DNA of 64,000 nucleotides from an uncultured Draconibacterium sp. Lineage in GTDB: Bacteria > Bacteroidota > Bacteroidia > Bacteroidales > Prolixibacteraceae. Positions 18,798-49,654 of the stretch are shown in pieces. Position numbers and translations under genes: made by a program. Below the pieces are notes generated by a model, which saw only the letters and a list, made by a program, of their open reading frames with translations, made no database searches and was not told the DNA's origin. Location of the stretch: the NCBI RefSeq assembly GCF_963675585.1, contig NZ_OY776414.1, forward strand, positions 1,839,001 to 1,903,000. Reading direction: 5' to 3'. Within the stretch, counting starts at the first letter, position 1. Each line of letters starts with the position of its first letter.

Positions 18798-18829
18798 CAA
18801 ATCTATGCTTTACAACACAAACATACAAT
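18798..18829 (-). promoter_or_regulatory. Bacteroidota-type promoter for GH3 (minus strand)
   Basis: Read on the minus strand, an ATTG (-33 element, 18826-18829) and a perfect TAGATTTG (-7 element TAnnTTTG, 18798-18805) are separated by 20 bases. The start codon of the GH3 gene is about 60 bp downstream. The -33 end touches the palindrome at 18829-18845, which fits repression by blocking polymerase. Confidence 0.6.
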
Positions 18830-18845
18830 GTGTCATTCAAACACA
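18829..18845. promoter_or_regulatory. Candidate operator, regulator/GH3 divergent region
   Basis: The 17-bp near-palindrome TGTGTCATTCAAACACA has the form TGTGTC-N5-AACACA. It lies between the divergent GH3 and Nudix-repressor genes and abuts the GH3 promoter. Three related sites lie before other esterase/GH3 units in this window. Binding by the adjacent repressor is inferred. Confidence 0.6.
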
Positions 18846-18917
18846 ATAATAAATAATTTATTCAACAAAGCAAAAACAATAAAAATCATTTACTTTGTAA
18901 GGTTAAAAAAAATAATA

Positions 18918-19667
18918 TTGGCTACCATAACTTTAGATACAAGGCATTTTCTGGATCATATTTCACTCGATTGTGTCATATTTGGATTTCATGATAACGA
19001 ATTAAAAGTGTTAACACTTCAAATTAAAACCACTTTGGAAAGTGCTTTGCCCGGAGGGTTTCTAAAAAAAGACGAAACACTGGAACAGGCTGCCAGCCGG
19101 GTTCTGAAGGAAAGAACCGGTTTGGATGAAATTTTTCTGAAACAATTTAAAGTATTTAGCGACCCTTCCCGTTCAAACGAAAATCCCCAAAATCCATTGG
19201 CTGTTGATCCGAAACTACCGTACAATTTTGAATTTTTTAATAAACGTTTTATTTCGGTAGGATTTTATGCGCTTGTTGATTTTACAAAGGTAAAGCCGGC
19301 ACCGGATTTTTATTCGCTGGAGTGGCAATGGAACAATGTAAATGAACCGGTTAAATACATTATTGATCACCGTAATATTATTGACGAAGCGCTTGAAGTG
19401 CTGCGTTTACAACTCCGACACCAACCAATTGGTTATAATCTGTTACCCGACAGGTTTACCATGCCTGAATTACAGAAATTGTATGAAACGATATTAGGAC
19501 GCGAACTCGACCGCCGCAATTTTCAACGAAAAATTCATTCGTATAAAATTCTGAATAAACTGGGCGAACGGAAAAAAGGAGGAGCGCACAAATCTCCGTT
19601 TTTATACGAATTCAACCTTGAAAATTATCAAAAAGCCTTAAATGAAGGGCTGAATGGAACCTGGTAA
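18918..19667 (+). CDS. NrtR/AraR-like Nudix-domain transcriptional regulator
   Basis: This is a sugar-responsive DNA-binding regulator with an N-terminal Nudix fold and a C-terminal winged helix. It resembles, from memory, the Bacteroides arabinose repressor AraR (DCVIFGF near the start, then QPIGYNLLPDRFTMPELQ, LYETILGRELDRRNFQRK). The Nudix box GFLKKDE...RVLKERTG lacks the RE and second Glu needed for catalysis, so it should bind a ligand and not hydrolyse one. I chose the TTG start at 18918 because it leaves about 16 residues before the conserved Asp; the only ATG in frame (18828) would add 30 AT-coded residues and would overlap the palindrome. Likely effector is a pentose or related sugar, by family only. 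Confidence 0.85.
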   Translation: MATITLDTRHFLDHISLDCVIFGFHDNELKVLTLQIKTTLESALPGGFLKKDETLEQAASRVLKERTGLDEIFLKQFKVFSDPSRSNENPQNPLAVDPKLPYNFEFFNKRFISVGFYALVDFTKVKPAPDFYSLEWQWNNVNEPVKYIIDHRNIIDEALEVLRLQLRHQPIGYNLLPDRFTMPELQKLYETILGRELDRRNFQRKIHSYKILNKLGERKKGGAHKSPFLYEFNLENYQKALNEGLNGTW

Positions 19668-20001
19668 TATTTCATTTGAAAGGATATTCGAATAGGACAA
19701 GTCCTTTAAAATTGAATTTGTTGACGTTTATACCTTGGGTAAAATATTACGGCAAACCGAATTTCCCAAATATTATCTTTTTAAAACATTAAAAAGATCA
19801 AAGATGTAGTACCGTCAAGATCAATAGATAAAATTTCCTACAAAATATTTCGTGGATGACTTAAAAGTTGACATCCAAATCGGAAAATGATAAATTTATA
19901 CCGGGTCGTTTGTTAAACGGAGATGAGCGCTCTGTTTTTCTCGACAACTCAAAAATTGGTGCACTCAAAGTAAAAATGTACTACTATTAAACTCAACTAT
20001 T
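19668..20001. pseudogene. Intergenic stretch with coding-like remnants
   Basis: No intact gene fits this 334-bp gap. Two short open pieces on the plus strand look coding-like: 19696-19809 (DKSFKIEFVDVYTLGKIL..., ending at TAG) and 19865-19990 (...IPGRLLNGDERSVFLDNSKI..., ending at TAA). Neither has a start codon, they are in different frames, and a third piece (KYFVDDLKVDIQIGK) sits between them in another frame. They may be remains of one broken gene, or chance in A+T-rich DNA. Confidence 0.3.
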
Positions 20002-47794: not shown

Positions 47795-47795
47795 T

Positions 47796-48680
47796 TTAAT
47801 CGGGATTAGTCAGCCATTCATAAAAACGATCGATCCACATATCGGTTGGCGCATTTTGTTTTTGCATACCAAATCCATGTCCACCTTTACGGTAGATGTG
47901 TAATTCTGCCGATTTTCCGGCTTCGGTCCACGTATTGTATAAACGGGTACAGTGCGTTTGAAATCCAAAAGTATCATCGGTAGCAGCTGCTATAAAAATA
48001 GCAGGAGCATCATCAGGAACCGGCGGATTGCCGAAACTTCCTACGTACGGATAAATGGGAGCTGCAAAATCGGGACGACTTTTTGTTTCGTACTTAAAAG
48101 CCACACCGGCGGTAACCGTTCCACCGGCCGAAAATCCCATAATACCAATTTTATCGGCTTTTATGTTCCAGTCTACGGCATGCTCACGAACGTAGGCAAT
48201 GGCTGCCTTTCCATCTTCAATTGCCATGCCTACAACCGGTTCAATATCTTTGTTAAATTTATCAGTATTGGGTTGTTTTTGCATAAATTCCTGCATCGGA
48301 TTATCGCTAAAGCAATGTTCCGTGCGGTATTTCAAAACAATGGCTGTGATTCCTTTTTCGTTTAACCACTTCGCTACGTCGTAACCTTCGTTTTTCATCG
48401 AAAGAAAATGAAATCCTCCACCGGGACATACAATTACCGCCTGCCCTGTAGCAATTTCAGCCTGAGCTTCAAACACGATTAATTCGGGATGCACAATGTT
48501 ATAGCTAAACTCTGCAGCTCCCATTTTCATTATTTCCTCGTTCCAATCCCAACTTTCAGAACCCGGAGCAGATCCTTCGTACAGTCGGATGGTTTTGTTT
48601 TGTGTAAAACCATAATTGCAGATAAACAACACAAAAACAAACAGGCTTATTAACCTTTGTAATCTCATTTTTCCTGTCAT
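47796..48680 (-). CDS. Exported alpha/beta-hydrolase, BD-FAE/acetyl-xylan-esterase-like
   Basis: This is a 294-residue secreted esterase with a signal peptide (about 1-26) and a compact hydrolase domain: oxyanion motif VCPGGGFHFLS, nucleophile elbow MGFSAGGTVTAG, acid in AATDDTFGF and catalytic His in KGGHGFGMQ. Such proteins remove acetyl or feruloyl groups from xylan and pectin. The ATG at 48680 directly follows the stop codon of the CE1 gene and suggests translational coupling; an ATG at 48668 would also give a signal peptide. Confidence 0.9.
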   Translation of the reverse strand: MTGKMRLQRLISLFVFVLFICNYGFTQNKTIRLYEGSAPGSESWDWNEEIMKMGAAEFSYNIVHPELIVFEAQAEIATGQAVIVCPGGGFHFLSMKNEGYDVAKWLNEKGITAIVLKYRTEHCFSDNPMQEFMQKQPNTDKFNKDIEPVVGMAIEDGKAAIAYVREHAVDWNIKADKIGIMGFSAGGTVTAGVAFKYETKSRPDFAAPIYPYVGSFGNPPVPDDAPAIFIAAATDDTFGFQTHCTRLYNTWTEAGKSAELHIYRKGGHGFGMQKQNAPTDMWIDRFYEWLTNPD

Positions 48681-49535
48681 TTAATTTTCACGAAAACAAT
48701 TACTTACAAAAGGCAAAGCAATGTACAAAGCTGAATGCCAGTATTCCCAGGTGTGACCACCGTCGCGAACACGGAGTTGATATGGAATTTGCTTTTGGCG
48801 CAAGGCCGAAATAAATTCCATGTTCGGATCGAACGTAAAATCATCGTCACCGCAATCAATAAACCAGTTTACTGTTTTTAGCGCTTCAACCGCTTGTGCA
48901 TCGGCATTCTGAATTATTTTCACACAATTATGATCTTCAACCAGCGTTTGCATTCTTTCCTGTACCGGATCATTTTTGTCTAAAAAAGGCAAATCCTGAC
49001 GGTACAAATATCCGCTCATTTCGTAAGCTGCACAAAACAACTCAGGATGACTGGTGGCATAAACAACCGTTCCTCCACCACCCATCGACAAACCTGCTAT
49101 GGCACGATGTTGTTTATCGCCAATTACCCGGTAATTACTTTCTATAAAAGGAATCATCTCTTCGAAAAAATAATCCTGATAACGCCATTCCGGATGATTA
49201 AAATAATTCATGAAGGTTTTTCCGGCTTCCGGACAAACAATGATCATTTCGCAGGCTTCATTTGAATCCATTAACTGATTGGCTACATCGCCAACATGTC
49301 CGCGGCCCGGCCAGTCTTTATGGCTTCCACCGCCTCCGTGTAAGAGGTAAAGTACCGGATAGTATTTTTCGGTGTTTGTTGCATACGATTTGGGTAAATA
49401 TACGGAATATTCCCTGTCTTCATTTAAAATTTTGCTGGGTATGGTTTTAAACTCCACTTTACCCTGAGGAGGAAATTGTGCAAAAGATGCAACATAAGCA
49501 GTCACAAATAGCACCAGAAAGATTAGTTTTTTCAT
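48681..49535 (-). CDS. CE1-type esterase, first gene of the cluster
   Basis: This is a 284-residue secreted CE1/esterase-D protein: signal peptide (about 1-19, ending ASFAQ), oxyanion motif [12 protein letters not shown], nucleophile elbow AGLSMGGGG (Ser near 151) and His in DGGHTWEYW. It lacks the E-set domain of its paralogue at 43990. I chose ATG 49535; a TTG at 49553 would only lengthen the signal. As the first gene of a six-gene minus-strand unit (CE1, BD-FAE-like, DUF1593, amidohydrolase, CE1, type-B esterase) it lies behind a variant of the TGTGTC-type site. Confidence 0.9.
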
Positions 49536-49637
49536 TGGTATTAGTTTATTCAAATTAGTTCAGTATAGTAAAATTGCAACACCAATTCAGACGATTTAAC
49601 CGGTGCACAACATTTAGTCAGACTACTAAAACATCAA

Positions 49638-49654
49638 TGCGTTTAATTGACACA
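49638..49654. promoter_or_regulatory. Candidate operator before the esterase operon
   Basis: TGCGTTTAATTGACACA matches TGTGTC-N5-GACACA with two differences in the left arm. It is 103 bp before the CE1 start codon. The 414-bp gap 49536-49949 also holds the terminator of the pectin operon; nothing else was recognised in it. Confidence 0.45.

Follow-up and report, generated by a model that had tools for sequence, protein, structure and literature searches.

A predicted NrtR-family regulon of GH3, esterase and Gfo/Idh-type genes in an uncultured Draconibacterium

Polysaccharide degradation in the Bacteroidota is usually ascribed to hybrid two-component systems, SusR and extracytoplasmic function (ECF) sigma systems. 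A stretch of 64,000 nucleotides from an uncultured Draconibacterium sp. (contig NZ_OY776414.1, positions 1,839,001 to 1,903,000; hereafter 'the window') raises the question of what an NrtR-family regulator encoded among GH3 and esterase genes controls there, and through which DNA sites it does so. The initial annotation of the window had noted four 17-bp palindromes upstream of such genes and had assigned them to the regulator encoded beside the first. We consider it likely that this regulator represses a regulon of GH3, esterase and Gfo/Idh-type genes through the 17-bp palindrome, and that an effector releases it. A dedicated one-component regulator whose operator can be read, and which links GH3 enzymes and esterases to a probable oxidative pathway for glycosides, would help to find the substrates of the many esterases that are still unassigned, and the regulon offers a simple test of the ligand of the Nudix-like pocket.

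The four palindromes are present where they were reported, starting at positions 18829, 39392, 42139 and 49638 (operators 1 to 4, Table 1) with one, two, no and two mismatches, respectively, to TGTGTC-N5-GACACA, and at up to two mismatches this pattern occurs nowhere else in the window. Their number is ordinary: 59 other palindromes built from half-sites of TGTGTC composition (60 in all) average 3.2 matches at the same threshold, so that the original argument from the scarcity of such sites does not hold, and at up to three mismatches the window's 18 matches compare with a shuffle expectation of 20.15. It is the placement of the sites, the other half of that argument, which sets them apart. 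All four are intergenic, in a window of which 7.6% is intergenic, and all four lie 40–150 bp from an annotated start, whereas the control palindromes average 0.14 intergenic matches and 0.08 at that distance from a start, the best of them reaching one. When all 4096 half-sites were tried, four upstream sites were reached by TGTGTC and eight words composed of A and T alone. The site at 42139 is the sole perfect match in the 6.03-Mb, four-contig genome.

Operator 1, proposed as the site shared by the regulator gene and the divergent GH3 operon, is conserved along with the regulator. We collected 80 regulator-homologue loci from named genomes, 78 of which had enough upstream sequence to be scored. 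The core GTGT-N7-ACAC, with at most one of its eight bases mismatched, is found at -130 to -41 in 65 of the 78 (exactly in 45), typically about 90 bp before the gene, and the full site, at up to two mismatches, lies within -250 to +20 in 40. Scored alike, the 256 possible half-sites place GTGT first; the other 255 average 4.8 loci, and the runner-up (49/78) is that motif displaced by a single base. The loci span the Marinilabiliales, Sphingobacteriales (Mucilaginibacter), Chitinophagales and Cytophagales (Telluribacter), and share ancestry, so the counts are not those of independent events; the 36 genomes of our genome comparison were, moreover, chosen for having the regulator. The Mucilaginibacter version, at the same distance, is mostly GGTGTA-N5-TACACA or GGTGTA-N5-AACACA. 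Among regulators from within the window's own bacterial family, a site with up to two mismatches starts 85–103 bp before residue 1 in 23 of 40 loci; one of the remainder (L052) is without upstream sequence and 13 of the other 16 form a single well-supported genus paralogue clade. A footprint of 24 regulator upstreams, selected for carrying the site (these 23 and the window), gives 0.92 for the fixed columns, 0.47 for the spacer and 0.58 for the flanks. A palindromic operator before the regulator's own gene, a hallmark by which the NrtR family is judged, is thus seen in both sequence and conservation. The company that the gene keeps follows the site: a GH3, esterase or TIM-barrel gene of the families discussed here lies within 5 kb in 68 of the 80 loci, and such a neighbour is missing from one of the 65 loci with the regulator site against nine of the 13 without it.

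The regulator has the domain order of the NrtR family, a Nudix-like domain and then the NrtR winged helix, with Pfam scores of 86.5 bits for NrtR_WHD (cut-off 27), 30.7 for NUDIX (21.1) and 36.9 for AraR_C (23.8). Together with its best solved relative, BtAraR (5bs6, E 4.9e-36), these domains support the NrtR/AraR-type identity first assigned to it. Its predicted TTG start lies 72 bp from operator 1; an open reading frame start at 18828 was rejected, since homologues align from about 18918 and the earlier start would engulf operator 1. Judged by the regulator, Draconibacterium aestuarii is the closest named relative (78% identity). Of the residues with which BtAraR contacts DNA, Arg180 and Asn181 are kept, Arg takes the place of Lys179 and Lys184, and the wing pair Lys204/Arg205 aligns to His and Lys (this matching takes BtAraR chain numbers as the numbers of the paper plus 3); the stretch LDRRNFQR is unchanged across 14 aligned regulator homologues. 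The oligonucleotides bound by BtAraR contain, in the available text of PMC4666351, AGTGTAAAAAAGACACT and GTGTATTTGATACAC, both of the form GTGT-N7-ACAC, with the exact limits of the sites unmarked.

This kinship, seen in the AraR_C match, the solved relative and the common operator form, would also suit an arabinose regulon in which the regulator is AraR itself. The ligand pocket speaks against it. Among the BtAraR contacts to arabinose, His131 is kept, Arg86 falls in a stretch outside the alignment and Arg34 aligns to Ile, and because this last contact is lost a role of arabinose as effector is unsupported; nor did a Pfam scan of 34 genes of the window show any arabinose-catabolism family. 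We regard an arabinose regulon as very improbable. The same 34 genes include no family of nicotinamide adenine dinucleotide (NAD) biosynthesis, and although the family and winged helix are shared with the NrtR of NAD metabolism, the match to the corresponding model, NCBIfam NF050029, is 88 bits, far below the cut-off of 400.

The site is also conserved before several target families. Next to the regulator, the gene order GH3a, carboxylesterase, second GH3 and DUF5916 recurs in two relatives, G035 and G069, and is partly retained elsewhere. The site before the esterase operon is identical to operator 4 in G035, whose first esterase-operon gene is 95% identical, and TGTGTCATTTAAACATA stands 79 bp before the esterase operon of G068 and 78 bp before the CBM48-CE1 gene that leads the esterase operon of G069. 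In L062 (= L204), L221 and L225 the CBM48-CE1 gene comes with a site of its own, and in L064 (= L210) it shares that of the regulator; in G050 and G036, homologues 84% identical to the carboxylesterase of the esterase operon are neighbours of the regulator. GH3b counterparts of at least 45% identity are found in 37 of the 80 regulator-homologue loci; those listed lie upstream of the regulator on the opposite strand, mostly in Mucilaginibacter and Chitinophagaceae, and that of L239 is preceded, at 34 bp, by a separate site. A broader test covered 99 regulator loci of related lineages (1.77 Mb), with the regulator's own site left out: TGTGTC yields 15 intergenic upstream sites, compared with 4.0 ± 2.4 (at most 12) among the 59 controls, and the 15 sites precede CBM48-CE1 (3), GH3a (2), GH3b (1), SusC-like (7) and other genes (2). 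With the addition of 12 loci that were fetched after sites or target homologues were known there, the 111 loci give 20 sites, nine before esterase or GH3 genes, seven before SusC-like genes and four elsewhere, against 4.4 ± 2.4 (maximum 12); one of those four precedes an ECF-sigma gene at the head of a SusC/D operon in G069. All seven SusC-like sites come from related Mucilaginibacter-type loci.

The initial annotation held that all targets are esterases, GH3 enzymes or their operon partners. For the genome this fails: outside the window, TGTGTCATTTCTACACA starts 83 bp upstream of an operon of a Gfo/Idh oxidoreductase and a TIM-barrel protein (C4:4046961-4049323). Among Gfo/Idh homologues of 70–100% identity, the genome's own copy included, a site with up to two mismatches starts 34–126 bp upstream in 16 of the 20 closest; five more distant Gfo/Idh loci have no site. 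Eleven Draconibacterium homologues share the form TGCGTC-N5-GACAAA with a varying spacer, and the footprint of the 16 upstreams gives 0.93, 0.75 and 0.67 for fixed columns, spacer and flanks. In one genome (G020) the Gfo/Idh gene adjoins the regulator. A 2024 Nature paper is said to describe an alternative pathway of glycan breakdown. The available text of PMC11300592 describes BT2158 as a periplasmic glycoside 3-dehydrogenase, and the present operon resembles the oxidative 3-keto-glycoside pathway of that enzyme in having Gfo/Idh and TIM-barrel relatives, the latter related to 8tcd, 8tcr, 8tcs and 8tct. It differs in degree: BT_2158_fam is the best curated match of the Gfo/Idh protein (E 2.4e-37), at 128.6 bits against a cut-off of 750, and by sequence the protein is kin of this 3-dehydrogenase family and not a member of it. 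Separately, GMC oxidoreductase genes stand near the regulator in L229, L239, L249 and L273 (84–100% identical to that of L229), which are three Chitinophagaceae and one unclassified Bacteroidetes.

How the sites might act is suggested by predicted promoters. The -33/-7 promoter that had been noted beside operator 1 is recognised towards the GH3 operon and not towards the regulator. Allowing one mismatch in all, the GH3 side has four -33/-7 pairs, each of which overlaps or encloses operator 1, and the minus-strand ATTG/TATGTTTG pair has the operator within its spacer; the lone esterase has one consensus promoter, clear of operator 2. In the 63 regulator upstreams long enough for a column count, the bases at distances of 4, 5, 10 and 11 from the operator's end are T, A, T and T at frequencies of 0.92, 0.97, 0.92 and 0.87, and such a conserved TA-N4-TT, 4 bp past the operator, would fit a -7 box of a promoter whose spacer holds the operator. 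Both features would suit a repressor site. That the regulator instead activates, or does both, would sit well with the scarcity of recognised promoter consensus before most targets; given the overlap of the operator with every predicted GH3 promoter and the position of TA-N4-TT, we judge it quite improbable.

Several observations weigh against a regulon of the extent proposed. At the promoter limit just given, four of the six promoters scanned, those of the regulator, GH3b, the esterase operon and the Gfo/Idh gene, show no match to the consensus. At up to one mismatch the genome has 6 sites compared with 3 for a reversed-pattern control, and 11 relatives together have 50 compared with 38; because this excess is slight the motif by itself cannot define the regulon, and a genome-wide scan as its definition was rejected on the first of these counts. 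One of the six sites resembles a terminator hairpin. Directly before homologues of the first esterase gene the site is seen in just two loci out of 24 others, of which one is weak evidence because its homologue is 95% identical, and five homologues at 67–73% identity (L135–L139) have no site directly before the gene. Homologues of the lone esterase have the site in none of 12 other loci, and those of GH3b in none of 29 others in the Prolixibacteraceae, 27 of which have upstream sequence (the GH3b homologues examined are the 30 matches that became loci, with the genome's own second copy left out). Looking for sites before orthologues, as was initially suggested, thus favours the regulator/GH3 pair, gives limited support for the esterase operon (three relatives) and goes against the lone esterase and GH3b, whose sites mark the least certain members of the regulon. 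These two sites may indeed be chance occurrences, with function confined to the regulator/GH3, esterase-operon and Gfo/Idh sites: they are not found before homologues in relatives, and two-mismatch sites are frequent by chance. Such an account must contend with the upstream position common to all four window sites, with the standing of 42139 as the only perfect match in the genome and with the GH3b-type genes beside the regulator in other orders, including the one in L239 with a site of its own, and we think it somewhat unlikely.

A further point of doubt concerns the protein that binds. The genome encodes four other NrtR_WHD proteins, and a paralogue whose recognition helix is identical occurs in relatives within the genus, so that the sites might be bound by a different NrtR-family protein in place of the neighbouring regulator. 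The four paralogues of the genome itself, however, have other recognition helices, no GTGT-N7-ACAC within 300 bp upstream and one three-mismatch site, none of them falls within the genus paralogue clade, and the site travels with the neighbouring regulator across orders; binding by another family member is, in our view, most unlikely. The 13 loci of the genus clade (L058, L059, L063, L065–L074), whose recognition helix is that of the regulator, were tested as carriers of the site and have no operator before their own gene; in the genus this clade may nevertheless be a second binder, which tells against the proposal. At several of these loci the neighbours resemble what we take to be L-rhamnose transport and isomerase genes. 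One paralogue of the genome itself (L015:12897-13670), with a different recognition helix, has a perfect palindrome, ATTACTTTTAAAGTAAT, about 148 bp upstream and stands between what are presumably GH16 and GH3 genes.

We therefore return to repression by the neighbouring regulator. In the mechanism that we propose, the apo-regulator, as a dimer of the AraR-like, sugar-sensing kind, would sit on TGTGTC-N5-GACACA (core GTGT-N7-ACAC) in or next to promoters, where it would block RNA polymerase and so repress its own gene, the divergent GH3/esterase/GH3 operon, the esterase operon and the distant Gfo/Idh and TIM-barrel operon. A small molecule released from plant glycosides would bind the Nudix-like pocket and free the DNA, as L-arabinose frees BtAraR from DNA in the available text of PMC4666351. 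Rhamnosidases, GH43, pectic lyases and GH28 among the neighbouring genes suggest pectin-rich plant material, and feruloylated side chains and phenolic glycosides are therefore plausible substrates. The regulator is probably a sugar-type repressor that controls the de-esterification and then the cleavage of plant sugars, along with a distant operon resembling an oxidative sugar-cutting pathway.

Two relatives frame this proposal. BtAraR (BT0354; PDB 5BS6, 5DDG) is alike in family, domain order, operator form and, largely, main DNA-reading residues, and in governing a carbohydrate regulon with several operons clustered with the regulator; it differs in the Arg34 contact, lost here, and in its targets, which here are GH3, esterase and Gfo/Idh operons. 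XylR (BT0791) of Bacteroides thetaiotaomicron, named in PMC4666351 and PMC3878776, is likewise an NrtR-family sugar regulator of the Bacteroidetes; its targets are xylose genes. Among the titles listed in a literature survey, AraR and XylR are the NrtR-family sugar regulators described for the Bacteroidetes, and none of those titles concerns the present regulon or regulator branch. The predicted regulon is new, its regulator being of a known kind, and it is wider than had been proposed for the window. More tentatively, and at somewhat less than even odds, the regulator would represent a third sugar-type NrtR branch, in the Marinilabiliales, Sphingobacteriales, Chitinophagales and Cytophagales, providing a single switch for hydrolytic (GH3 with feruloyl and carboxyl esterases) and oxidative (Gfo/Idh 3-dehydrogenase-like and TIM-barrel proteins, with GMC nearby) scavenging of plant glycosides, whose effector would be a released glycoside or 3-keto-sugar and not arabinose.

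Table 1. Predicted operators, promoter and genes of the regulon in the window (window positions)
Feature	Position	Strand	Remarks
Predicted GH3-operon promoter	18818..18847	-	-33 ATTG 18844-18847; -7 TATGTTTG 18818-18825; spacing 18; consensus match only
Operator 1 (predicted), TGTGTCATTCAAACACA	18829..18845		Between GH3 operon and divergent regulator gene; sequence match; conserved near -90 in regulator homologues
Operator 2 (predicted)	39392..39408		Precedes lone esterase by 70 bp; 2 mismatches; the weakest site in the window
Operator 3 (predicted)	42139..42155		Perfect TGTGTC-N5-GACACA; 84 bp before BglX-type GH3
Operator 4 (predicted)	49638..49654		Upstream of esterase operon, by 84 bp (from TTG 49553) or 101 bp (from ATG 49536); 2 mismatches
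NrtR-family regulator, 249 aa	18918..19667	+	TTG start inferred by homologue alignment; Nudix-like domain, then NrtR_WHD/AraR_C winged helix
GH3a, first gene of divergent operon	16311..18737	-	Nearest solved relatives are beta-glucosidases 8idz, 2x40
Carboxylesterase-family gene PF00135, GH3a operon	14620..16194	-	Order kept in G035, G069
Second GH3 of GH3a operon	12259..14598	-	Solved relatives include 9ul7, SN243 (7qe1)
DUF5916/CBM9-like protein	9857..12094	-	Probable last gene of GH3a operon
Lone esterase, alpha/beta hydrolase (BD-FAE/Abhydrolase_3)	38071..39321	-	
GH3b, beta-glucosidase BglX	39700..42054	-	NCBIfam 920 bits, cut-off 666
CE1-like esterase PF00756, first gene of esterase operon	48681..49553	-	
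Alpha/beta hydrolase, esterase operon	47796..48680	-	
Sde182-type nucleoside-hydrolase-like protein, esterase operon	46292..47794	-	
Amidohydrolase PF04909, esterase operon	45270..46271	-	
CBM48 + CE1 protein, feruloyl-esterase-like	43990..45135	-	7b5v, 6rzn, 8bbp
Carboxylesterase-family gene, last of esterase operon	42235..43917	-	

The amidohydrolase gene is separated by 134 bp from the next gene, and the esterase operon may therefore split there. Further sites were seen elsewhere. In seven Mucilaginibacter-type loci (L232, L247, L250, L259, L261, L264 and L265) a second palindrome with the same core lies 314–350 bp before a SusC-like gene, near position 7000, with GH3b standing between it and the regulator. 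In G069 a one-mismatch site (L184:6410-6426) stands 45 bp before an apparent ECF sigma/FecR/SusC/SusD operon that precedes the esterase operon, and the regulator may therefore also control uptake. On contig 3 (L003, L013) a site precedes a SusC-like gene beside an apparent AraC-type gene. Finally, an 847-aa protein with no Pfam or NCBIfam match is encoded at 49950-52493 of the window, and is 89% identical in G035, where it too lies beside the esterase operon.

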